62,294 bases of DNA. Origin: Prochlorococcus sp. AG-363-G03. Lineage in GTDB: Bacteria; Cyanobacteriota; Cyanobacteriia; PCC-6307; Cyanobiaceae. The notes under the pieces are model-generated. The model saw only the letters and a program-made list of their open reading frames with translations, did not search any database and was not told the DNA's origin. The translations under genes and the position numbers were made by a program. Where the stretch lies: contig QCFJ01000002.1 of assembly GCA_003280265.1 (NCBI GenBank), positions 1 to 62,294 of the forward strand. The letters run 5' to 3'. Position 1 is the first letter of the stretch; the number at the start of each line of letters is the position of its first letter. Of the stretch, positions 46,864-62,294 are shown one piece after another.

Positions 46864-49323
46864 TTGGAAAATAAATCCCAGAATTCCATAGAAAACGTAA
46901 ATTCTTCAAGTCCAACAACAGGGGCAGAAGATCAGAACTTAAATCTAAAAAATGACGATATAGATCTTACAGAAATACTTAAAAGTATCTTAAGAAGAAA
47001 AAGAATAGTAATAGGAGTGGCATCAACAGTTTTTGTGTTGGTTGGATTAAATACTATATATAAAAGAGTATATAATCCTATATACGAAGGTAGTTTTACC
47101 CTATTAATTAAAGATCCAATAAAAACAGACGCGGAAATAAATCAAGGCACCTCTTTCCAAAGTGCCGCTCTAGGTAGATCCGAAAATAAAATTGATATTT
47201 TGATACCTTTTCTAAGAAGCCCTTTAGTTTTAGATTCTCTGGCAAAAGAGATTGGTACCTCCTCAAAAAGTTTAATCTCTAGAATTAACCTTAGAGGTAT
47301 AGGAGAGGATCGCAGAAATCAAGGAATAATTAACGTCACTGTTAAAGGGCCAAACAGAGCAAATAATCTGAAATTACTAAATTCTTTAGAAAAGTTATAT
47401 CTAAAAGTTGCTCTTGATGAGCGTCAAAAGAAATTATCTGAAGGAATAAGATTTTTAAATAAACAGGCACCATTTCTAGTAGCAAAAACAAATGAACTTC
47501 AAAATAAATTAGCTGATCTAAGGATTAAACATAATATTCTTGACCCAACTGAAGAAGGAATAATATTAAAGGAAGCATTGGTAGAGGTTGATATGAAAAT
47601 ACTTGAATTGGATCAAAAAAATAAGAGATTAAAAGAAATCAGATCAGGAATTAAGAATGGGACACTTAGTGTAAATGGCTTTGCAGAAAGACTTTCGGAT
47701 AATCAAGAAGGACTAATTAATGATGGGCTATCTGTAACTGGAGCAGAACAAACTTTGCTACAGGAAGTTATTAGCTTAAATAATAAATTATCAAAAGCTA
47801 AAACCATTTATCGACCCGAGTCTTTAGTAATTAAAGGACTTGAATCTAGACTTGAAGTAATTCAACCACTAGTTAAAAAAAATCAAATGGAAGTGATAAA
47901 TCTGGCAATCGATTCTAACAGGTCAAGATCAAAGGTTCTTTATGAGCAGAAGGAATTGATTAATAAAACTTTCTTACAACAGCCACTTTTAATACAACGT
48001 TTTGATGCCTTAACACAAGAATTATTCTTGGCCAGAGAAAATGTTGCTTCTTTAAATTCAACTCGAGAAAACTTTAAATTTGAACTTGGTCAAGAAACAA
48101 TTCCATGGAAAATCTTATCTCCTAGCCAAGTAGATGATATTCCAATTTCTCCAAAAATATTAAATAATCTTATCCAAGGTTTAGTCGCAGGTATTATTCT
48201 TGGTATGGTTGCAGCACTATTACGAGATAGGTTTGATTATGTATATTTCTCACCGTCAGAGGTCACAGATGAGCTAGGAGTTCCTTTACTATCTCATATT
48301 CCTTATATAGAACTATTCGAAGGTGTAAGAGAGGAAAAAAAGTCTATTATTAGTTTGATTAATAAACTGGGTAAAGATAATGATGAAAAAGATAATGATG
48401 AAAAAGATAATGATGAAAAAGATAATGATGAAAAAGATTTAAAAGGGAAAGAAAAAAAAGAATACCAAAGATTTTTTTATCAAGAATCCTTTAGAAATCT
48501 ATTTACTTCACTACGTTACCTTAATGCCGAAAAAAAATTAAAAACAATTGTTTTAACTTCTTCTATCCCTGCGGAAGGAAAGTCCTTAATGTCTATATTA
48601 TTCGCTAAAACACTTTCTGAGCTTGGAGAAAGAGTTTTATTAGTTGATTGTGATCTAAGGAAACCGCAACTAGATGGAAGATTAGGTATGAATAATATCA
48701 ACGGTATGAGTAATATTTTAATTAATCCGGAATCAAAATGGGAAGATGCAGTTCAAAAAGTAAAAGGTCATAAAAACTGGTCAGTAATTACTGCTGGCAG
48801 GAAAGCACCTGATCCAACACGTTTATTAAGCTCAATAAGAATGAAATCAATATGTGATAGTATAAAAAAATCAGATGAATATGACTTTATTATTTTAGAT
48901 TCACCTCCTATTTTAGGGGTGTCAGATGCATCATTAATATCAGAGAATACAGATGGATTAATTCTTCTAGCAACCATAGGTTTTGTAAAGAGAAACTTAC
49001 CTAAAGAGTCAATTAATCGTTTAAAAAGTTCTAAAGCAAATGTTCTTGGTGTTATCACTAATTCCAAGAGAGAGGAATCTTTTGTCACTGATATTTATGA
49101 GGGTGGATATGGAGGATATGGTGCATACGGTGCATATGGTGCATATGGATATGTTTATCGTGCCTATAGTCGCGATACAGAAGGCGTAAGATCACGAAAG
49201 GTTCAAGATTTAAATTCTAATATTTTTACTGAAAAATTAAAATCAGTTCCTTATTTATATGAAATAATTTTAAAAGCTAAGAATTTATTTTCAAGAACTA
49301 TAAGATGGATTGACAAAAAATGA
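46864..49323 (+). CDS. wzc: Wzc-like co-polymerase/BY-kinase (chain length determinant and tyrosine autokinase)
   Basis: 819 residues with a TTG start forced by an in-frame stop 16 bp upstream. TM1 is about 47-64, a coiled periplasmic Wzz domain runs to about 430, TM2 is about 434-453. The cytoplasmic kinase has Walker A TSSIPAEGKS (565-574), Walker A' VLLVDCDLRK (591-600) and Walker B FIILDSPP (675-682). The linker carries four identical DNDEK repeats at 505-524. The C-terminal Tyr cluster (nine Tyr at 745-768) is the autophosphorylation tail, followed by about 50 additional residues. It controls export and chain length with the Wza-like protein. Confidence 0.93.
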   Translation: MENKSQNSIENVNSSSPTTGAEDQNLNLKNDDIDLTEILKSILRRKRIVIGVASTVFVLVGLNTIYKRVYNPIYEGSFTLLIKDPIKTDAEINQGTSFQSAALGRSENKIDILIPFLRSPLVLDSLAKEIGTSSKSLISRINLRGIGEDRRNQGIINVTVKGPNRANNLKLLNSLEKLYLKVALDERQKKLSEGIRFLNKQAPFLVAKTNELQNKLADLRIKHNILDPTEEGIILKEALVEVDMKILELDQKNKRLKEIRSGIKNGTLSVNGFAERLSDNQEGLINDGLSVTGAEQTLLQEVISLNNKLSKAKTIYRPESLVIKGLESRLEVIQPLVKKNQMEVINLAIDSNRSRSKVLYEQKELINKTFLQQPLLIQRFDALTQELFLARENVASLNSTRENFKFELGQETIPWKILSPSQVDDIPISPKILNNLIQGLVAGIILGMVAALLRDRFDYVYFSPSEVTDELGVPLLSHIPYIELFEGVREEKKSIISLINKLGKDNDEKDNDEKDNDEKDNDEKDLKGKEKKEYQRFFYQESFRNLFTSLRYLNAEKKLKTIVLTSSIPAEGKSLMSILFAKTLSELGERVLLVDCDLRKPQLDGRLGMNNINGMSNILINPESKWEDAVQKVKGHKNWSVITAGRKAPDPTRLLSSIRMKSICDSIKKSDEYDFIILDSPPILGVSDASLISENTDGLILLATIGFVKRNLPKESINRLKSSKANVLGVITNSKREESFVTDIYEGGYGGYGAYGAYGAYGYVYRAYSRDTEGVRSRKVQDLNSNIFTEKLKSVPYLYEIILKAKNLFSRTIRWIDKK
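48376..48435 (+). repeat. four perfect 15-bp tandem repeats in the Wzc linker
   Basis: The unit GATAATGATGAAAAA occurs four times without a mismatch and encodes DNDEK each time. Copy-number change by slippage would alter linker length in steps of five residues without a frameshift. Confidence 0.95.
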
Positions 49324-52711: not shown

Positions 52712-53703
52712 ATTTTTTTTAACGCTCCTGTTGCTCTATAAATCATTTCGAATTCTGAATTACAATGAAAACTAAATCTATAATTTATATCTTGATTGAC
52801 TTTAGAAAAGTTATCCTCCACAAGTAACAATTTTGAATAACCTGCTTCGTTTGCTAATTTAAGATTAGATTCTTTGTAGGATCCATTTGGGAATGCATAT
52901 ATATAAGGTTGAAATCCTAAGTTATCCTTAAACCAATTTGAGCATGATAATAGATCATTTCTGAAAAAATCATCACTTTCTAATGCCATACTTGAGTGAT
53001 AAAAAGAATGAGCTCCCCAGTCATAGTAATTTAATATTTGCAGGATATCCTCTCTATTCATCATAGGTGTTGATAATTCGTAAAGCTTATCTCCTATTTG
53101 CTCATAACAATATTTCTCTATTTCTCGTTGAACTTTATATGAATTATTTTTTACATACCTAGATAACTTTAGTCCTTCCTCATATTTATTCAGGTTTTGA
53201 TTCCAGGAATAATTTGGTATTTTAAACTTTATTAATTCTTTCTTAGAAATCTTACCAATATAATCTTGAAGAATCACATTAACTGGAGGCCTTTTCTGCT
53301 CTATACAACTTGGAATTATATTTATATTCGCCCTAATTCCATGTCTCATAAGTATGGGGTGGGCAATTGTAAGAAAGTCTTTGTAACCATCATCAAAAGA
53401 TAAAATAACTTTTGGTTTTTCTACCGGTGAGTCTAAATTTGGTTTTTCATTTTCAAGTTCAGAAAAACTTGTAAAAGCGAAATTCTCTTTCAAAAATATA
53501 ATTAATTTACTAAATATTTGAGGATCAAGAGGCGGGTATGCACTACCATCATCTTTTGCTACTCTATGGAGATTTAGAATAACTAAAAGATTTTTTTCCT
53601 TTATTTTATATATTCTTCTTTTAATTCTTAAAGGGTTTACAAGCAGTTGATAAATCAACTGTTTTATGATTTGTTTAGTTCCTTTATTATATGGTAAATA
53701 CAT
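52708..53703 (-). CDS. polysaccharide deacetylase family protein (right-hand copy)
   Basis: 331 residues. SFDDGYKDF at 102-110 gives the NodB Asp pair (D104, D105), the HxxxH metal motif is H232/H236 in GAHSFYHSS, and YAFPNGSYKE is the following catalytic-site segment. The basic N-terminal 35 residues may associate with the membrane. It overlaps the formyltransferase gene by 4 bp, making a coupled deacetylase/formyltransferase pair. It has the same size class and motif spacing as the gene at 940, but the sequences are clearly divergent. Confidence 0.88.
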   Translation of the reverse strand: MYLPYNKGTKQIIKQLIYQLLVNPLRIKRRIYKIKEKNLLVILNLHRVAKDDGSAYPPLDPQIFSKLIIFLKENFAFTSFSELENEKPNLDSPVEKPKVILSFDDGYKDFLTIAHPILMRHGIRANINIIPSCIEQKRPPVNVILQDYIGKISKKELIKFKIPNYSWNQNLNKYEEGLKLSRYVKNNSYKVQREIEKYCYEQIGDKLYELSTPMMNREDILQILNYYDWGAHSFYHSSMALESDDFFRNDLLSCSNWFKDNLGFQPYIYAFPNGSYKESNLKLANEAGYSKLLLVEDNFSKVNQDINYRFSFHCNSEFEMIYRATGALKKI

Positions 53704-53795
53704 AATTTATATATAAAAAGTAAATAATATTCTTCAATAAATGTATATCTTTATATTTTAACTGGCACTAAAAAACCTAAAGAATTAACCAATTT

Positions 53796-53828
53796 AATCA
53801 ATTAACTAACATTATCAGTTAATTGATT
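53796..53828. repeat. perfect 12-bp inverted repeat between deacetylase gene and tRNA
   Basis: AATCAATTAACT at 53796-53807 pairs with AGTTAATTGATT at 53817-53828 across 9 bases. It lies 55 bp beyond the 3' end of the leftward tRNA gene and 93 bp before the deacetylase start. It may end the tRNA transcript or serve as a protein-binding dyad; there is no convincing T-run. Confidence 0.5.
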
Positions 53829-53882
53829 CTAAAACATTGATAAAGAAGCTCAAAGCAAAGCCATGTTAAAACCTTTAAAAGA

Positions 53883-53955
53883 TGGAGCCAAGCGGACTCG
53901 AACCGCTGACCCCCTGCATGCCATGCAGGTGCTCTACCAGCTGAGCTATGGCCCC
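53883..53955 (-). tRNA. tRNA-Ala (anticodon GGC)
   Basis: The - strand folds into a full 73-base cloverleaf. The acceptor stem GGGGCCA/TGGCTCC contains the G3-U70 wobble pair that identifies alanine tRNAs, the D arm is GCTC..GAGC, the anticodon stem CCTGC/GCAGG closes loop ATGGCAT with anticodon GGC, and the T arm contains GTTCGAGTC. The 3' CCA is not encoded. A tyrosine integrase gene starts 157 bp beyond its 5' end, so the tRNA may mark an integration site. Confidence 0.97.
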
Positions 53956-54020
53956 AAATCGTTGACATGAGAGTGATTGCAATCAATCTCAAGCAACATA
54001 ACCATTATACTTCACCACTC

Positions 54021-54050
54021 AAATATACCCAAATACACCCAGATATACCC
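54021..54050 (+). repeat. three 10-bp direct repeats upstream of the integrase
   Basis: AAATATACCC, AAATACACCC and AGATATACCC follow each other with exact 10-bp period, about one helical turn. They sit between the tRNA 5' end and the TGCGGTA boxes and could bind integrase or an accessory protein. Confidence 0.8.
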
Positions 54051-54054
54051 AATG

Positions 54055-54085
54055 TGCGGTAGATTCTGCGGTAAATCTGCGGTAA
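54055..54085 (+). repeat. three TGCGGTA boxes upstream of the integrase
   Basis: TGCGGTA occurs at 54055, 54067 and 54078 (spacings 12 and 11 bp), with a degenerate TGCGGCA at 54134 inside the integrase gene. A further TGCGGTAAAT occurs at 55832 and an inverted TGCGGC at 55811, past the small gene that follows. Arm-type integrase sites or element-end repeats are possible. Confidence 0.8.
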
Positions 54086-54111
54086 GCTCTTTGCAATAGA
54101 GAACAGGGTTT

Positions 54112-55383
54112 ATGGACAAATGGGTAATAAATCTGCGGCAAAACCTTAAAGAGGATGGTCATATTGGTTTTTCTGTTACTCAGAAATCAGGAAAAGTTGA
54201 GCTAACTCACCGCATCAATGAAGGTAAGGGAAGCAAGAATCCACGCTCCAGCGTTACTGTTCCTATTGAGTGGAAGAAAGATAACAAGAGAAAAATTCAA
54301 GATACCGTTGGGAACATCCATGACTTGATGGCAGAGAGGAAGCTATCTCTAAGGGATGCTTTTGAGCTTTATAAAAAACAAGATGACATTGGAAAGAATC
54401 CAACAGATGTTGAATGGAATTGGCTGGCTGATGAATACTTAAAGACTAAAAGTGATCGCAGAACTACAACACTTAGAGATACAACCAGCAGAATCAAGAA
54501 GATGTTGGAAGCGAAAGAGTCTCTACCAAAACCGCGAGATTCAAAAGAACTATATAAAAGGTATTCAGAAAGGAATTTTGAAAAGATGGCCGCTGGTGGT
54601 CAGGGCAGGAAAAGAGCTTTCGGAGATATAGCGGCTTTCCTTAAATGGGCTGTTAATAGACAAGGGTTAGACATGAAATGGCTGCCGCCTGATTCAGAAA
54701 TTGTTCAAGAATTAATTGGATTGAAAAAATTTAGCGAGCAAATCGAGGTAACTCCACCCGTAAAGCCAGAACAATTCTCATGGCTGTTAGATAAATTAGA
54801 GGAGAAAAAGTTATATGAACTTAGGCTCGCTTGTGGATTAATTGGTTACTTCGGACTGCGATTAGCTGAGCTTGCTGTTTTACAAGTTGATGGAAATGAA
54901 TTGTATGTTGGTTCGAAGGTTAAACAGAACTTAAGGAGTAGAGAGAATAGAAAACCAAGGCTTGCAATTGGATTGGATTGCAAAGGTAGAAAGAAGGGCG
55001 AAGCGTATAACTTTTTAAAAGATTTTTCCACTGGAGCTGTGCAATTACCTTATGCAGTTAAATCTCAAATAGAAATGATAATTAAAGGAGAAAAAGATCA
55101 CTATCAAGATGTTGGAGCTGCTTTCTCTCAATTACTTGAGAGAACAGATTGCTGGCAAGAATTAAAGAAGGTAGAACCAAATTTAACTCCATATAGCCTT
55201 CGGCATGGCTGGGCTTTTCGTAGCCATACTGATTCAATCAATCACTTATCTGTAAGGAGTGCAGCCGCATCAATGGGGCATACAAATGCAACGCACCAGA
55301 GGCACTATGGACAATGGATAGATCAAGAAACCTTGAAGCAAGAAAGAGAGAAATTCAATAAAGGGGTAGAGGCGACTGTATGA
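54112..55383 (+). CDS. tyrosine recombinase/integrase
   Basis: 423 residues. Residues about 100-185 form a SAM-like core-binding domain and about 215-415 the catalytic domain: R250 in GYFGLRLAEL, R364 in PYSLRHG, H390 in SMGHTN and the nucleophile Y399 in HQRHYGQW. The first catalytic His (HxxR) is Tyr361, a tolerated variation. The N-terminal 95 residues are probably an arm-binding domain. The gene lies next to tRNA-Ala with short repeats between, an arrangement known for tRNA-targeting elements including those of Prochlorococcus. It appears intact. Its base composition is visibly less AT-rich than the polysaccharide genes, consistent with separate ancestry. Confidence 0.9.
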   Translation: MDKWVINLRQNLKEDGHIGFSVTQKSGKVELTHRINEGKGSKNPRSSVTVPIEWKKDNKRKIQDTVGNIHDLMAERKLSLRDAFELYKKQDDIGKNPTDVEWNWLADEYLKTKSDRRTTTLRDTTSRIKKMLEAKESLPKPRDSKELYKRYSERNFEKMAAGGQGRKRAFGDIAAFLKWAVNRQGLDMKWLPPDSEIVQELIGLKKFSEQIEVTPPVKPEQFSWLLDKLEEKKLYELRLACGLIGYFGLRLAELAVLQVDGNELYVGSKVKQNLRSRENRKPRLAIGLDCKGRKKGEAYNFLKDFSTGAVQLPYAVKSQIEMIIKGEKDHYQDVGAAFSQLLERTDCWQELKKVEPNLTPYSLRHGWAFRSHTDSINHLSVRSAAASMGHTNATHQRHYGQWIDQETLKQEREKFNKGVEATV

Positions 55384-55436
55384 AAATCAAGGTAAAAAAC
55401 GCTTAAGGCATAATGGGGTTATGGATTAGCTGATTA

Positions 55437-55781
55437 ATGGAAAATTCTAATTGGCTCTCTAGATGGAAGGAGGAAACAGAGAAAACAGATCCCCCTGAAA
55501 TCTTAGAAAAAGAAGAGGAGGAGAAGTGGCAAGAGACTCGAGAAGCGTATGAACTTTTTAAGGTTGAGCCAATCCAAAAAGAAGGAGAGTCAGATGATGA
55601 CTTTGCCTACCGCCATAAATCTTGGGAATTTCAAAAAGAGGAATATCAGCAATATTGGAAGACGAAAATAAAAAACTATCCTGATAACAAAAAGACAAGC
55701 GAAGATAAAAAAAAGGAAGGGCACAATGTAGACCAAATGCTTGAGCTACATATGGCCTATAGGGAATTACCCCAGTCATAA
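55437..55781 (+). CDS. small acidic hypothetical protein following the integrase
   Basis: 114 residues, rich in Glu, Lys and Trp/Tyr (for example KEEEEKWQE and WEFQKEEYQQYW), probably helical and soluble. No family recognised. It starts 53 bp after the integrase stop and ends just before TGCGGTA-type repeats that also occur upstream of the integrase, so it may belong to the same small element, for example as an accessory or directionality protein. That is speculation from position; the protein has none of the usual small basic excisionase features. Confidence 0.6.
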   Translation: MENSNWLSRWKEETEKTDPPEILEKEEEEKWQETREAYELFKVEPIQKEGESDDDFAYRHKSWEFQKEEYQQYWKTKIKNYPDNKKTSEDKKKEGHNVDQMLELHMAYRELPQS

Positions 55782-55853
55782 CAATTTTGTCAATCTGCTT
55801 CTACCTTTTTGCCGCAGAAAGAGTCACACATTGCGGTAAATTAGGCTTTTCGA

Positions 55854-56117
55854 TTAATTATTCTTAAAAGGGTTTTTAAACTTTTTATTATTTGGGTTAA
55901 TACTACTATCGCCACCTATTTTTTTCATTTTCTTTAAAGTACTTTTGTTGATTCGTGTAAATTCTTTCTTATAACATTTTTCATTATTTTTGCATTTAAT
56001 TTGAGCAGTAGCGCATTCCGGAACTTGCAGGCATAAATCCTTAAAAGATTTTGCTTGCACCTTTGAAGAATAAAATGACATTAAAAATAAAGAAGAGAAT
56101 AGTAAAAACCTATTCAT
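55854..56117 (-). CDS. small secreted four-Cys protein (C)
   Basis: 87 residues. A Sec signal peptide spans about 1-22 (hydrophobic FLLFSSLFLMSFY, cleavage after VQA). The mature part has four Cys in the pattern C-x5-C-x6-C-x5-C (CLQVPEC, then KCKNNEKC) and a Lys/Asn-rich tail ending KFKNPFKNN. A Shine-Dalgarno GAGGAA lies 11 bp before the ATG. The mature part is homologous to the 92-residue protein at 57121, which has a different signal peptide. Function unknown; two disulfides and export to periplasm or medium are likely. Confidence 0.7.
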   Translation of the reverse strand: MNRFLLFSSLFLMSFYSSKVQAKSFKDLCLQVPECATAQIKCKNNEKCYKKEFTRINKSTLKKMKKIGGDSSINPNNKKFKNPFKNN

Positions 56118-56250
56118 GAAAATAATTCCTCATTTGATTTATAAATAAATATAGAAACCATCAAAAAAAGATCAATAGATTGAAACATATATATAGCTGG
56201 AAAAGAAATTTACCACTTAATATTATTCAAAGCAACTCTTGAAATTAATT

Positions 56251-56284
56251 AAAAAAGGGGGAAAACTTGTTGCCCCCCCCTTTT
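56251..56284 (-). terminator. intrinsic terminator of the 195-residue secreted-protein gene
   Basis: A-run plus GGGGG at 56251-56261 pairs with the C-run plus TTTT at 56273-56284 around an 11-base loop. Read on the - strand it is a G/C stem followed by a U-run, 36 bp beyond the stop codon at 56320. Confidence 0.8.
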
Positions 56285-56319
56285 AGCTTTTATGTATAAA
56301 CTTTTAGCACTTAATGCGA

Positions 56320-56907
56320 CTAACGCTTGAAGAACTTTTTAGCTTTTTTACCCGCTTTTTTCATTGATTTTCCAGCTTTTTTCGTTGTATTTGTTACTGT
56401 TTTTCCAACTGTTTTTGCTGCATTTTTTGTTTCTTCAGCTGCATATTTTGCAGCATCTGTAGTTCCTTGTTTTGCCAGTTTGTTTATTTTTGCTCTTTTT
56501 CGTAGGATATTCGATGATGTTTTATCAACACAAGAAACAGTTTGTTTTATATAAGGTAGAGGGTTTTTTGATACCTTCTCAGGGTCCTTAATATCTTTTC
56601 CTACAGCATTGTACATACACTTGGAAACTACTGCTCCTCCACAAATTCTCTGTACAGAGTTCCATTCTTCAGTTGCGCTTTGGTAAATTGATACTATTTT
56701 AGGTACTTTAGGTCCTTTGCCAAAACTCAAGTCAGGTACGAAGTTACAAGCTTGTTCCAGTTTTTGTTCAGCTTGAATAACAGGTCTTGCACTCTTTAAG
56801 ACAGACCTTATTTTACTTGGGACTTTATTTGCCAATACAGGCGTTGCTAAAGCTGTGCCAAAGGTTGCAGCACCAAGGATGGCACAAAACCTCTTTAATT
56901 TGATCAT
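56320..56907 (-). CDS. secreted Lys/Ala-rich protein with shared leader (A)
   Basis: 195 residues. The signal peptide MIKLKRFCAILGAATF continues to a probable cleavage after VLA at 26. The mature part has four Cys (ACNFVP, RICGG, SKCMY, VSCVD) and a strongly basic C-terminal third made of Lys/Ala/Thr repeats (KNAAKTVGKTV, then KKAGKSMKKAGKKAKKFF). The first 16 residues, the 5' leader and the promoter region are nearly identical to those of the gene at 57121, but the mature region is not. No family recognised; the basic tail suggests binding to nucleic acid or a negatively charged surface. Confidence 0.72.
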   Translation of the reverse strand: MIKLKRFCAILGAATFGTALATPVLANKVPSKIRSVLKSARPVIQAEQKLEQACNFVPDLSFGKGPKVPKIVSIYQSATEEWNSVQRICGGAVVSKCMYNAVGKDIKDPEKVSKNPLPYIKQTVSCVDKTSSNILRKRAKINKLAKQGTTDAAKYAAEETKNAAKTVGKTVTNTTKKAGKSMKKAGKKAKKFFKR

Positions 56908-56940
56908 AAAAAAATAGTCTTTATATGGTGACTAGTTTGA

Positions 56941-56968
56941 ACTATAGGAAGGGGATGGAGAAGTTCAA
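56941..56968 (-). promoter_or_regulatory. promoter of the 195-residue secreted-protein gene
   Basis: On the - strand TTGAAC (56968-56963) and TATAGT (56946-56941) are 16 bp apart. The whole segment 56908-56995 matches 57400-57487 upstream of the other leader-sharing gene, and the hexamers are conserved. Confidence 0.55.
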
Positions 56969-57054
56969 CATTCAAACATCAAAAGATATAGAAGAAAGTA
57001 TTCTGATTGGAGAATCATTTATATTGTTAAAAAAAGCTATTGAAATTGACCAAT

Positions 57055-57084
57055 AAAAAGGGGGCATTTTTTTGCCCCCTTTTA
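57055..57084 (-). terminator. intrinsic terminator of the 92-residue secreted-protein gene
   Basis: AAAAAGGGGGCA at 57055-57066 and TGCCCCCTTTT at 57073-57083 form a strong stem with a 6-base loop, 37 bp after the stop codon at 57121. On the - strand the stem ends in a U-run. It resembles the terminator at 56251-56284. Confidence 0.85.
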
Positions 57085-57120
57085 GTTTTTAAGTTATAGA
57101 AATTTTGTATTTATTTCGAT

Positions 57121-57399
57121 CTAATGCCTATGCTTCTTCTTTTTAAATAGATTTTTAAACCCCTTCGAGGCTTTATTTACCTTCTTACCATAATTTTTTG
57201 TATACTTCTCTGTGCTATCAACTATACATTTTTCATCTCCTTTGCAATCTCCTACAATCTCAGCAACCTTGCATTGTGGAATAAGTCTGCAGGCTTTAAT
57301 AGCATCATCCTTTGCTGACCCTGCTAATGCAGGCAATGATAAAGATGTGGCAAAGGTTGCAGCTCCAAGGATTGCACAAAACCTTTTTAATTTGATCAT
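57121..57399 (-). CDS. small secreted four-Cys protein with shared leader (B)
   Basis: 92 residues. The signal peptide (MIKLKRFCAILGAATF, cleavage after ALA near 26) is the same as in the gene at 56320. The mature part has the pattern C-x5-C-x8-C-x5-C (CRLIPQC, then GDCKGDEKC) and a Lys/His-rich tail, homologous to the 87-residue protein at 55854. No Shine-Dalgarno is present: a 7-bp hairpin and a T-run precede the ATG. It is therefore a chimera-like link between the two other secreted proteins. Function unknown. Confidence 0.75.
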   Translation of the reverse strand: MIKLKRFCAILGAATFATSLSLPALAGSAKDDAIKACRLIPQCKVAEIVGDCKGDEKCIVDSTEKYTKNYGKKVNKASKGFKNLFKKKKHRH

Positions 57400-57404
57400 A
57401 AAAA

Positions 57405-57428
57405 AATAGTCTTTATATAATGACTATT
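57405..57428 (-). promoter_or_regulatory. 5'-leader hairpin directly before the start codon
   Basis: AATAGTC at 57405-57411 and GACTATT at 57422-57428 form a perfect 7-bp stem ending a few bases before the ATG. The paralogous leader keeps a 5-bp core (TAGTC 56915-56919 with GACTA 56930-56934). No ribosome-binding site is visible in either leader, so the hairpin may matter for translation. Confidence 0.45.
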
Positions 57429-57432
57429 CTCA

Positions 57433-57460
57433 AATATAGGAAGGGGATGGAAAAATTCAA
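57433..57460 (-). promoter_or_regulatory. promoter of the 92-residue secreted-protein gene
   Basis: On the - strand TTGAAT (57460-57455) and TATATT (57438-57433) are 16 bp apart, conserved in spacing and position with the promoter at 56941-56968. Confidence 0.55.
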
Positions 57461-57537
57461 CATTCAAATATCAAAAGATACAGAATAAATGCTTGTGATG
57501 TAGGTGGTCCTAAAAGGACAAATCTATAGTTTTATCT

Positions 57538-57972
57538 TTATCTTTGTTTGCATAATTTAAAGCAAAAACCTTGATTTTTTCTATAACCACGAGGGCACTT
57601 TTCTCCTATCATTGGTAGTGCATTTTGTTTAAGGTTTGGGCTCGATTGGCAATATCCCCTGTTATTTCTATAACCAATTGGACAGTTACTTGGCAATTGA
57701 CCGTCATAAATTGGTATTACACCCAAAACATCATTTGTTAACGGCAAACAGTAGCCATTGTTAGAATAAAAACCGCTCGGGCATTTTTCACCTACTTGAA
57801 CTATTGGAGCTAAAGTTTGACTGACACAGTATTTTGATGAAAATTCGGAGCACGTCTTTTCATTTATATTAAAAGGAACATGAGCTAAAATCATCGTTGA
57901 TGTAAAAAGATTAAATAACACATATTTAGGTATATCTATATAAAAAGTTAACGTAGATTTGTTAAAAGCCAA
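57538..57972 (-). CDS. secreted Cys-rich repeat protein
   Basis: 144 residues with a TTG start (no ATG fits before an upstream stop; a later ATG at 57894 would remove the signal-like segment). Residues about 17-33 are hydrophobic and may be a signal peptide. Three repeats follow: KCPSGFYSNNGYC, NCPIGYRNNRGYC and KCPRGYRKNQGFC, plus two Cys near residue 41-50 and one at the end. Each repeat has Cys-Pro-x-Gly-aromatic and a closing Cys. I recall similar CPxGY repeats in picocyanobacterial secreted proteins, but could not check. It is divergent from the gene at 58046 across 73 bp. Confidence 0.68.
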   Translation of the reverse strand: MAFNKSTLTFYIDIPKYVLFNLFTSTMILAHVPFNINEKTCSEFSSKYCVSQTLAPIVQVGEKCPSGFYSNNGYCLPLTNDVLGVIPIYDGQLPSNCPIGYRNNRGYCQSSPNLKQNALPMIGEKCPRGYRKNQGFCFKLCKQR

Positions 57973-58045
57973 TAAGTGTTGTAATCAAAAAAATCTTGCT
58001 TTTTTTATTTCTTAAGTTAAAAAATAAAGAACACAAGAAAATTCT

Positions 58046-58558
58046 ATGATTAATAACTTTTTCCGAAAGTTCGCCTTAAAGTTTATGTGTATTGGTGGAG
58101 TTGGTTTTGGTATTGTTGCTCCAAATGTTGCTTTAGCCGATTACAGCTTTGATGGCCCTTCTACAAGTTGGGGTTCTGATACAACTGAGTCAAGTTTTTC
58201 AATTAATAAAGATTCAATGAGTTGTTCTTCAGGTGGCGGAAGTACTCCTTCATTGTGGGTTGGTGCTCAAAGTGGTAATTCAGATATTGTTGGGGGAGAT
58301 CTTATGGAGAAACAAGCTGATGACTTTATATCTGCAGGAGTTGGGTTCACTATCCCACTTGGGTCTCCAGGAAATAAGGGGGCTCATTGTAAAGATGTTA
58401 TGGCAATCCTTGAAGCCGAAGAATTTTTAAACATGGTTGGAACTTTACAAGAAATGGGTGTAATTACTGAGGATAAAGGCAAAACTCTTATTGTTGAGTT
58501 TATGAAAAAAATTGGTAAAGTTCTAGAGGTTGATTTAGCCTCTGCAATTGGAAAATGA
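58046..58558 (+). CDS. secreted hypothetical protein
   Basis: 170 residues. The signal peptide has a basic start (NNFFRKFALK), a hydrophobic core and probable cleavage after ALA at 31. The mature part begins with a Ser/Gly-rich region (DYSFDGPSTSWGSD) and contains two Cys (SMSCSSGG and AHCKD), then a helical C-terminal half (EEFLNMVGTLQEMG). No family recognised. Divergent transcription from the Cys-rich repeat gene suggests co-regulation from the shared 73-bp gap. Confidence 0.65.
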   Translation: MINNFFRKFALKFMCIGGVGFGIVAPNVALADYSFDGPSTSWGSDTTESSFSINKDSMSCSSGGGSTPSLWVGAQSGNSDIVGGDLMEKQADDFISAGVGFTIPLGSPGNKGAHCKDVMAILEAEEFLNMVGTLQEMGVITEDKGKTLIVEFMKKIGKVLEVDLASAIGK

Positions 58559-59124
58559 TTTCTGAAACTGATAGAAAAAAGATAAGTTAATGTTAAAGTT
58601 AGAAGATACAAAGTAATCAGGAAATCAAATATTAATTCCTAATTTTTAAAATTTTCTAATAGTTTTTAAACTATTATTTATAAAAATTCTTCTATCCTAT
58701 TACATCTTATTAACGCTAGTTTTTACTTGAACTCTTTGTAAACTTCTCTTAGAAAATTATAATTACTTAGGTGTTGGAATTTTTATATATTACCTATAAT
58801 AATCATACTTATCACCTAAAGATCTCTAAATTACTTTTTTAATTTATCTAATTATATTTTATAGAACTATTTTTTTACATAACTAGCGAATATTTTTTAT
58901 ACTTTAACTTTCTCTTCTTTTTATCTTTAGGTACACGAGTTTGAGAATACTTGGAATATAATCTTTGAATCAATACAACATATGAAAACATTTATCGTAA
59001 AGTAGGTTATTTAAAAACCATTTGATAAATTAATGCATTCTAGGCTTATTATTAATATTAAGAAGTGTGGATTAGATGTGGATATATTTATTTAAATTGA
59101 TCATAATTTAATATCTATTCTGAG
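58559..59124. other. 566-bp gene-free region
   Basis: Very AT-rich with no convincing ORF. A perfect 9-bp hairpin (TAATAGTTT/AAACTATTA, 58657-58676) about 100 bp after the secreted-protein gene may end its transcript. The right part must carry the promoter of the MscS-like gene. Nothing else recognised. Confidence 0.5.
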
Positions 59125-61314
59125 ATGATGAGTAAATCCCTCAAGAAATTCTGGATTATATTATCCAGTTCTTTTTTGACCTTAATATTTGTACTTGAGT
59201 TTTTGTTGCCTATTTATAACATTAGTGCTTATGCAGGTGGCTCAGGTAATCACAAAGATTTAATTGAAGATAAAAATGAATATTTATATAGCAATGTTGT
59301 TCCATTAAATGAACAGCCATTTTTTGATATTTTAGAAAGTAAATATGAAACATGGAAACATAATCCAATAGGAAATGTTGTTAGTAAATCTCCTCAAGAA
59401 TCACTAATCAATTTTTATGTATTGATGTCTATTGTTAATAATAAGAGAGATTTAATAATAAATTCTGCTTCTATTGACCCAGGACTTAATTGGAGTGAAG
59501 AGAAATATGAACAAATTAACGAGGTAAATCATTTATTTGAACTTGCTGTAAATGCTTTAGATGACTCTGATTTTCCTGAAAGTGTTAGATATCATTTAGC
59601 AAATGAGTCAGCTATTGAGATCAAACATCTTATTGACTATGTTTTTTACACTTCTAAAAAACCTATTGATTTAATTGAAAAAAGCAAGTTAAGCAATATG
59701 CCATCTAAATCTTTAGACAAAGTATTTGTTTGGCGATTACTTAGTACACCACTATCCCTTACCAACAAAATTGGAGATGATGGTATTGGATTCGGATATA
59801 GATTCTCTACAGAGACTGTTAAGAACGCAGCAATAATGTATAAGGAAATAGAATCTGAACTAAAATATATGCAATCTTCAAAGTATTACTCTCCTGATTT
59901 TTACTCAGACTTTATTCATACACCTGGAGGTCTTGTGCCTCCCAAATGGTATTTAAAATTACCAAGTGATTTACGCAAATTTTTTGAGCAAGATTTTATA
60001 TTTGGTGAAACACTTTTCCAAATATTTTTTGCATCATTATCAATTTCAATTTATATTTATGCATTTTATATTTGTTTAAAGAAAATTATATCAATATCTT
60101 CTTCAATAAATCAAGACACTTTACCACAACAAGTAGTTGAAAAAAATAGAAGAATTTTTCTTTATTCTTTGCCTTTCATTCCTATTACAAAAATCATTGA
60201 GTTGTTTATAGATAATTACCTAAATTTTACTGGATCTGCATTAGTTATTATTACATTTACTTTTGAAGCAATTTTGTTTACAATATCTACCTTTGTAATA
60301 ATTTTCTTCTTTGAAGCTTTAGGAAAATATATTGTATTTAATTTAAAAAATAAGGCATTAAATAATCGTTCTAAATTAAATGTTAAAAGAAAAGCAGGAT
60401 TAGTTTTACCAATTTTAAGAACCTTTGCGGCTTTAATTTCAGTAAGTTTAATTTACAAATTATTGATCCTTTTAGGACTATCGCCTTCATTGGTTTTAGC
60501 AATGTCGGCTGTCCCTGGTTTGGCAATAGGCTTAGGAGCTTCCAAACTATTGGGAAATTTATTTGCCGGTCTTTCAATTCAAGCTGATAATCATCTTCGG
60601 ATTGGAGAATTTTGTAAAGTTGGAGATGTTACTGGTTTCGTCACAAGAATTGGTCTGAGGTCTATTGAAATTCAGACTATTGAAAGTAAAGTAACAATTC
60701 CAAACTCATCCGCAGAAGAATCCTTAATTGAAAATTATAGCGCTCAAGAAGGTGAAAAATATGGACAGGGCTTGAACTTAAAATTAAAATTACCAAATAA
60801 TTTTTCTCCAAGACAGACGAAGTTATTGATAAGCAAGGCAACTGATTATGTTAATGAATTACCTTCTCTGATAAATAAAAAGGTAAGTATTGATAATGAT
60901 CAAGGAAATCTAATGTTAATGGTTTATTGTTTATTAAATCTCACTGATTTGGATACTTGGGATGAGTATATAAGTATGAAAGAAACTTTATTAGATAAAA
61001 TCCATGAACTAATTGATCAAGTTGAAATTTCTGATAGAAAGATTTCTGTTGCCTTTCAAACATCTCAAAATATGCTTCGTGATATTCCTAATATTGTTAA
61101 AAAAATTCTTGAATCAGATACTAATTTTACCTTTGAATCAATGAATCTTCTTTATATTTCTGATTATAGCTACGATTTTATTTTGGAATTAAATGGAACT
61201 CATGATACTTTTGATGCTTTCGAGTATGGCATAAGTCAATTTAATCAAAAACTTATTCAGAAATTTAATGAACTTAATATAGAAATCCCTTATCCAACAG
61301 AAAAAGCAGTCTAG
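59125..61314 (+). CDS. MscS-family mechanosensitive channel with large N-terminal extracytoplasmic domain
   Basis: 729 residues; ATG at 59125 or 59128. A signal peptide or anchor covers about 1-36. Residues about 37-290 form a soluble, mostly helical extracytoplasmic domain of unknown type. Four to five membrane segments follow (about 292-318, 340-360, 370-400, 425-450), then the MscS pore helix and beta domain: AMSAVPGLAIGLGASKLLGNLFAG, DNHLRIGEFCKVGDVTGFVTRIGLRS, and IPNSSAEESLIENYS. The pore helix has the Ala/Gly packing expected for MscS TM3. It should release solutes on membrane tension. The preceding gap is gene-free and the next gene converges. Confidence 0.88.
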   Translation: MMSKSLKKFWIILSSSFLTLIFVLEFLLPIYNISAYAGGSGNHKDLIEDKNEYLYSNVVPLNEQPFFDILESKYETWKHNPIGNVVSKSPQESLINFYVLMSIVNNKRDLIINSASIDPGLNWSEEKYEQINEVNHLFELAVNALDDSDFPESVRYHLANESAIEIKHLIDYVFYTSKKPIDLIEKSKLSNMPSKSLDKVFVWRLLSTPLSLTNKIGDDGIGFGYRFSTETVKNAAIMYKEIESELKYMQSSKYYSPDFYSDFIHTPGGLVPPKWYLKLPSDLRKFFEQDFIFGETLFQIFFASLSISIYIYAFYICLKKIISISSSINQDTLPQQVVEKNRRIFLYSLPFIPITKIIELFIDNYLNFTGSALVIITFTFEAILFTISTFVIIFFFEALGKYIVFNLKNKALNNRSKLNVKRKAGLVLPILRTFAALISVSLIYKLLILLGLSPSLVLAMSAVPGLAIGLGASKLLGNLFAGLSIQADNHLRIGEFCKVGDVTGFVTRIGLRSIEIQTIESKVTIPNSSAEESLIENYSAQEGEKYGQGLNLKLKLPNNFSPRQTKLLISKATDYVNELPSLINKKVSIDNDQGNLMLMVYCLLNLTDLDTWDEYISMKETLLDKIHELIDQVEISDRKISVAFQTSQNMLRDIPNIVKKILESDTNFTFESMNLLYISDYSYDFILELNGTHDTFDAFEYGISQFNQKLIQKFNELNIEIPYPTEKAV

Positions 61315-61516
61315 TATAGAATTTTTAATATCTTAATAAAAAATATTATTTTTGCAATTAGGGAATAAGGATATTTTTAACTAAGAAAGATTTTGAAAGC
61401 CAGTTATTAAATCTATTAGAGAAAAATATTTGGATTAAAGGTAAGAGCAAAATGAACCATTTACATTCGCTTTCATATGGCTTTGCCCAGACGCGAAACA
61501 AGGAGATTTTTTAAAT

Positions 61517-62294
61517 TTAATCTGTCCACTTTATCTCAGGAAATATATGTCTACCTTGCGCTAGCAGTTCAGAAATTGCAATATTAATTGACTTCTTGCT
61601 ATTTTTATCTAGGCTTTTTCCAAAAACAAATGCTTGATTATATTTTACAGGATCTTCAATAGAAATATAAAAATCTGAACTATTTATAATAGATTTTTTT
61701 ATATTTATTAAATTACCTTTTTCTCCAAATATGTGATCTACTTTTTCATTAACTAACAATTCTAATAGTCCTTCTTCGCCTTTCTCCGTTTTGAACAATT
61801 TAATCTTTTCTGTATCGTGTGTTTTTAGAGATGAAATCTTCTGATCTAACCAAGTTTCTTGGGCAGTACCTTTGGGAACGCCTACCCCTTCATAGAGTAT
61901 ATTTGAAAACTTATCTTTTTCTATTGAATTTATGTCACCAGGCTGAGATTCTAAAAAAATTAATGAAGCTGCTGTTCCAACAAAAGTTGAAACAATGGCT
62001 ATTCGTAAGAATGAAAATATCAATAAAAATATATCGTGAGTCATCGATGATCTATCTCCATATTCTCCAACCATAAACATCGTCCAAGAATGAATCAAAT
62101 TTTTCCTTCTTGAATTGCTAAAGTTAAGAAAATCGAATTTACCATTATCCCATTTATATACAATTAAGGAACCAATTAAACTAAATATTGATAGAAGAAT
62201 TAAGCTATAAATTAGTATCTTATCTTTTAATAAATTAAATATAAATCTTTGATTTAAATTTGTACTTTTTCTAGATAAGAATGCATTACTTTCT
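61517..62294 (-). CDS. GluR0-like ligand-gated channel, C-terminal part (N-terminus beyond the window)
   Basis: The frame is open to the window edge and a TTG at 62098 is internal, so the gene starts outside. In order (- strand) there is a membrane helix M1 (KILIYSLILLSIFSLIGSLIV), a pore loop with SWTMFMVGEYGDRSS, helix M2 (FLLIFSFLRIAIVSTFVGTAA), then lobe S2 of a periplasmic-binding-protein fold: GVPKGTAQETWL, LLVNEKVDHIFGE and a C-terminal KSINIAISELLAQGRH. This is the layout of prokaryotic ionotropic glutamate receptors such as Synechocystis GluR0, whose filter is TVGYG. Here an extra Glu splits the motif (VG-E-YGDR). The ligand is unknown and lobe S1 cannot be seen. Confidence 0.75.
   Translation of the reverse strand, partial: ESNAFLSRKSTNLNQRFIFNLLKDKILIYSLILLSIFSLIGSLIVYKWDNGKFDFLNFSNSRRKNLIHSWTMFMVGEYGDRSSMTHDIFLLIFSFLRIAIVSTFVGTAASLIFLESQPGDINSIEKDKFSNILYEGVGVPKGTAQETWLDQKISSLKTHDTEKIKLFKTEKGEEGLLELLVNEKVDHIFGEKGNLINIKKSIINSSDFYISIEDPVKYNQAFVFGKSLDKNSKKSINIAISELLAQGRHIFPEIKWTD

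Follow-up and report, generated by a model that had tools for sequence, protein, structure and literature searches.

A putative glutamate-receptor-type protein of Prochlorococcus sp. AG-363-G03 with an acidic pore tip and no potassium filter

Ger et al. 2010 (PMC2950845) describe 22 prokaryotic receptors of glutamate-receptor topology: 12 have a K+ filter, and the pore (P) regions of the other 10 (Group 2) could not be assigned. A P region of a type other than the K+ filter thus has precedents. GluR0, the cyanobacterial receptor of this type, has K+ activity and a membrane topology opposite to that of canonical K+ channels, as reported in PMC13099474. Here we describe a gene at the end of a stretch of 62,294 nucleotides (the window) that makes up the whole of contig QCFJ01000002.1 of Prochlorococcus sp. 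AG-363-G03. The gene probably codes for the C-terminal two thirds of a prokaryotic glutamate-receptor-type protein, one that would act as an amino-acid-gated pore-loop receptor without K+ selectivity. This reading is built on sequence comparison and structural models, namely the layout of the protein, the ligand-site columns conserved in its family, signs of purifying selection, and its place among members that lack a filter. A preliminary description gave the filter region as VG-E-YGDR and proposed a GluR0-like channel with an extra Glu inserted into its K+ filter; the letters, the codons (GTT GGA GAA TAT GGA GAT for VGEYGD) and the unusual acidic tip all stand, but the inserted residue does not.

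A profile search of 400 genomes of the family gave matches in 169 at E <= 1e-5. From 117 distinct profile hits we removed eight that were shorter than 240 aa or had E > 1e-20 (pieces of L022, L097, L138 and L141), and the remaining 109 together with the window protein form an alignment of 110 rows. By their pore tips these sort into TGPG (53), TVGYGD (19), TGIYK-like (12), TGEGD (5), STDH (5), GGAD (4), LNxGI (4) and GxxTP (3) classes, with four unassigned rows and the window protein by itself. The window protein has a P region but no recognised filter in it; VGEYGD is not TVGYGD, and its kin carry a different motif. In a tree of 71 rows computed without the pore columns, a branch with support 100/100 sets 19/19 TVGYGD rows apart from the window protein, which is sister to L009 (100/99) and falls with it within a nine-row set without filters (100/98); the tree is midpoint-rooted and some rows are long-branched with odd composition, so its deep order is unsure. 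One row with ambiguous letters (L104) was used in the trees and omitted from the models.

The classes also differ in a pair of cysteines in the S1 lobe, the first half of the split binding domain. All filled rows of the TGPG, TGIYK, TGEGD, LNxGI and GxxTP classes have the pair, L009 among them, as do three of the four unassigned rows (Cys at the two columns in 78/107 and 79/108 filled rows), and it is absent from the 19 TVGYGD, four GGAD and five STDH rows; the two residues may form a disulfide. By its sequence, the window protein belongs among the picocyanobacterial members without a K+ filter, most of which have the S1 Cys pair. A class-wide search of 388 genomes gave 67 with a match at 1e-20, 39 of them outside the family; the 15 loci examined, from 15 of these 39, comprise 12 with GYGD filters, two with LATQAEEM and one that stops short of the pore, none of them with the Cys pair. 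We note a further divergent group (L121, L137, L140, L141 and L142) in which LLLSTDHT replaces the filter and the Cys pair is likewise missing.

The closest relatives show what the tip Glu is. The window protein sits in a clade of six rows (99/97) with the tip consensus G-x-[Y/W/F]-[G/T/A]-[P/D/E], in which the tips read VGEYGD (window), VGVWTPLF (L009), VGEYGEL (L167 and L168), IGAYGPL (L169) and IGAFAPL (L114). Alignment identifies the window Glu as one state (E, A or V) of the variable position x in a different pore motif, with YGD as a look-alike. The Glu is shared by two of the five other rows of the clade (E in L167 and L168, V in L009, A in L169 and L114). We had considered, when only L009 was known nearby, that YGD arose through a compensated frameshift or local scar, an idea dropped because L167 and L168 carry VGEYGE at 38% identity.

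Changes at the tip are paired: within the six-row clade E goes with D or E three residues on, and A or V goes with P. A change of the same kind separates LNDGIDT (three rows) from LNTGIAT (L018), and a similar one separates TGEGDAE from TGPGSNT. When acids are counted over the five residues that follow the G/N position, across 113 rows (the 110 used for Cys and ligand columns plus L167–L169), 11 rows have at least two, 30 have one (19 of these canonical) and 72 have none. On a 53-row tree without pore columns, thinned from the 113 by reducing TGPG and omitting GGAD, STDH and one long-branch row, and with four of the 19 canonical rows as outgroup, the acidic-tip label needs six changes, all forced by well-supported branches, under a counting rule chosen after the sequences had been seen and with L167 and L168 being near-copies. 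Shuffled labels need about 10 changes, so the acidic-tip trait also follows kinship. Amino-acid changes are not significantly enriched in the pore between L168 and L169 (6/30 pore codons versus 33/349 outside, Fisher p = 0.11) or between L167 and L169 (p = 0.12), and L167 and L168 differ at 0/30 versus 5/349. Repeated switching of the tip is thus shown for the letters of the sequence, and neither selection nor altered ion flow is thereby supported. A broader proposal, which we offer tentatively, is that in the filter-less, amino-acid-gated channels of picocyanobacteria the tip may be either a double acidic ring (E-Y-G-D, E-Y-G-E, D-G-I-D, E-G-D-A-E) or a neutral or proline form and may switch repeatedly from one to the other among close relatives, that ion selectivity may be a switchable accessory trait, and that the window gene would represent one acidic state.

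The layout is GluR0-like, as the preliminary description had it: two helices enclose a pore loop, and the binding domain is split around M1-P-M2. Models, Pfam scans and full-length L009 bear this out. The AlphaFold model of the window fragment (mean pLDDT 87.7) has M1, a P-helix, a loop at residues 76–83 and M2, followed by the S2 lobe; most of S1 lies outside the window. Both lobes are present in L009, whose model finds matches in glutamate receptors and in the ligand core of GluR0. The models were built from 47 rows. At the ligand site, the S1 Arg column (matched to TPER of GluR0) holds R in 108/108 filled rows of relatives, and we take this residue to bind the ligand carboxyl. The S2 acid column holds D in 99, E in 5 and N in 5 of 109 rows, the window protein having an acid, Glu191. 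Ger et al. 2010 (PMC2950845) give Asp as conserved at the amino-group site in all of their prokaryotic receptors.

If the preferred reading is correct, the receptor would lie in the plasma membrane with its lobes outside, and four subunits would form the pore. An amino acid or similar solute, once bound, would close the lobes and pull the M2 gate open, by homology with GluR0, and ions would pass without K+ selectivity, such selectivity being unlikely without a TxGYG filter. In the tetramer, Glu77 and Asp80 at the tip would form two acid rings favouring cations, perhaps divalents; close relatives have neutral/Pro tips at these positions.

Several observations weigh against this reading. Conduction, ligand and assembly are predictions from sequence and models throughout the six-row clade. 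Whole-chain superposition is loose, with a TM-score by query length of 0.44–0.56 for L009 and 0.26–0.43 for the fragment, and canonical rows were also included in the alignments behind the models. The pore region alone, as a 33-row profile, has no significant sequence match in the PDB (best E 0.31). Since most of S1 falls outside the window, the ligand Arg and Cys pair of the protein are extrapolated from its relatives, and Glu191 replaces the usual Asp. Finally, the gene is rare, being found by protein in 1/37 genus genomes and in 5/266 of L009's genus, one of the five a 36-residue match.

It is unlikely, in our estimation, that the protein is a non-conducting receptor whose decayed pore module now serves as a membrane anchor, passing on or buffering the binding of ligand. 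The great diversity of tips (38 different 8-residue strings among 113 rows, three of them canonical) would suit it, as would the Pfam scan, in which 8/8 divergent members match SBP_bac_3 and no Pfam channel model at E 0.1, while canonical L134 and GGAD row L115 match Lig_chan. However, both models (window fragment and L009) contain the P-helix and loop, tip motifs are kept within subclades, and M2 aligns with the canonical M2.

A decaying or mis-assembled gene, with an odd tip that is an error or neutral drift, is a more remote prospect and in our view very unlikely. The ORF (258 aa plus stop in the window ORF list) is truncated at its 5' end because the window is a whole contig and the contig end is reached there; the source assembly is 1.21 Mb in 61 contigs and 57% complete, and a search with the L009 protein (E up to 10) found the rest of the gene nowhere else in it. 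Together with this contig edge, the tip differs from that of L009 by four substitutions and two missing residues, all consecutive, and interrupted or reduced copies exist in relatives. Yet the ORF has no stop, the ratio of nonsynonymous to synonymous rates (dN/dS) against L009 is 0.20 (258 aligned codons; a single pair, with dS of 0.98 near saturation), and the VGEYG string recurs in L167 and L168, themselves near-copies. The sequence has the look of a functional gene under purifying selection. That the protein is a GluR0-group K+ channel whose filter gained one Glu is highly improbable: the YGDR string, the upstream VG and the GluR0-like layout do resemble a channel with TVGYGDR, but the protein is separate from the TVGYGD rows, the Thr of TVGYG is missing, the first Gly of that motif is either replaced by Glu or shifted, and kin have VGVWTPLF, VGEYGELT, IGAYGPLT and IGAFAPLL at the same place.

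Profile libraries are of little help with the fragment, which scores 12.5 bits against Pfam Lig_chan PF00060 (E 0.13), below the curated cut-off of 30.8, and has no match in NCBIfam at E 10 or in PHROGs at 0.01. Against the PDB, phmmer of the fragment gave a single match, a spurious one (E 0.65). Lig_chan searched against the genus gave six weak rows among 41 genomes, the window's own included, none above the cut-off; the best of them (L002) was rejected as an ordinary K+-channel-like ORF with TTIGYGD.

The nearest relative, L009, comes from Prochlorococcus AG-422-C15 in the same family and is 69% identical to the window protein. A protein search that covered the window's genome, another 36 of the genus and 23 of the class (60 in all) matched only the window itself, and the exact VGEYGD codon pattern occurs in 1/41 genus genomes, the window's own. 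Within the order, 24 of 299 genomes have a match at E <= 0.1, the matches being the window, L009, eleven places at 24–32% identity with E < 1e-14, and weak rows that include true members (L020, L021, L023, L025, L029 and L030) and unrelated ones such as L027 and L031. The five matches in L009's genus are L009, the full-length L167, L168 and L169 at 38% (L167 and L168 being 98.7% identical), and the 36-residue match, which lies in a 44-codon ORF. The gene is missing from all 87 genomes of that genus with completeness of at least 90% and contamination of no more than 5%, and therefore looks accessory in the L009 lineage. The genera of G070 (0/3 genomes with a match) and G439 (6/34, at loci already known) yielded no new tip. 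Single-protein scans of genome and viral contigs, tblastn of phages and an alignment scan of viral contigs found no relative, and an alignment scan of genome contigs found one locus, on L009's contig.

Paralogues occur within single genomes, as in G324 (L018, L032 and L131), where two members are filter-less and the third is canonical with TVGYGD, and G107 (L012 and L110). Copies broken by stops or cut to a short match are seen in L010/L097 (G143), L022 (G173), G445:C52 and L170 (G894), and in some genomes the gene may thus be in decay.

Table 1. Features of the receptor-type gene, with positions in the window.
Feature	Position	Strand	Basis
Gene for a GluR0-like S1-M1-P-M2-S2 protein, start missing at contig end	61517..62293	-	ORF; full-length relative L009 = 393 aa
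Last strand of S1 lobe (ESNAFLSRK), remaining S1 beyond contig	62267..62293	-	Alignment with full-length L009
Pre-M1 helix	62225..62257	-	Model helix 13-23
M1 transmembrane helix	62144..62221	-	Model helix 25-50
Pore helix P	62069..62116	-	Model helix 60-75
Pore tip VGEYGD; Glu77 = 62063-62065, Asp80 = 62054-62056	62054..62071	-	Sequence; clade alignment
M2 transmembrane helix (gate-helix equivalent)	61946..62044	-	Model helix 84-116; aligned with canonical M2
S2 lobe; Glu191 (61721-61723) in amino-group-binding acid column	61520..61918	-	Alignment, model

Convergent with the receptor gene is a gene for an MscS-type mechanosensitive channel (PF00924, 6.9e-14; 59125-61314, +). Further left, a tRNA-Ala(GGC) gene (53881-53956, -) adjoins an integrase-like ORF (54112-55383, +) that matches a PHROG integrase at 7.9e-13 and has no Pfam match at 1e-3; an integrated island may include the receptor gene, but no tRNA repeat is present among the repeat families listed for 53600-62294, where the contig ends. 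A direct repeat of 178 nt (86% identical; 56830-57007 and 57322-57499) spans the upstream region and first 26 codons of two otherwise unlike small secreted-looking proteins (56320-56907 and 57121-57399, both -), and reads as a duplicated export leader. The region from about 25 to 54 kb looks like a sugar-polymer cluster, with glycosyltransferases, epimerases, an ABC exporter and a Wzz-like protein read from translations, Pfam having been run there for 46864-49323 only.

The relationship between glutamate receptors that have a K+ filter and those that lack one remains an open question. The interest of this locus lies in the filter-less receptor set and in the toggling of the tip between acidic and neutral states; natural pairs that differ at the two tip acids (the window protein and L009; L168 and L169) would be ready-made tests of selectivity in the simplest receptors. 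The locus also cautions against taking YGD in a pore loop, on its own, as a K+ filter. No description of the picocyanobacterial filter-less Cys-pair set appears among the matches listed in the open-access literature, a scope that leaves out subscription papers and preprints.

Among known systems, Group 2 of Ger et al. 2010 has the same topology, and its P region is likewise no K+ filter; this comparison is one of descriptions. L158 and L164, from other cyanobacterial families and with LATQAEEM tips, have no Cys pair, and that they resemble Group 2 is no more than conjecture. Binding lobes are likewise combined with a pore module in plant GLR3.4 and animal NMDA/AMPA receptors, and L009 is 12–18% identical to them in structure comparison; these receptors are not known to have a K+ filter, and eukaryotic glutamate receptors have an extra helix and an N-terminal domain. 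From GluR0 (Slr1257, Synechocystis) and Group 1 the window protein differs in being without TVGYGD and in grouping apart, and its kin have the S1 Cys pair whereas the 19 canonical rows do not.
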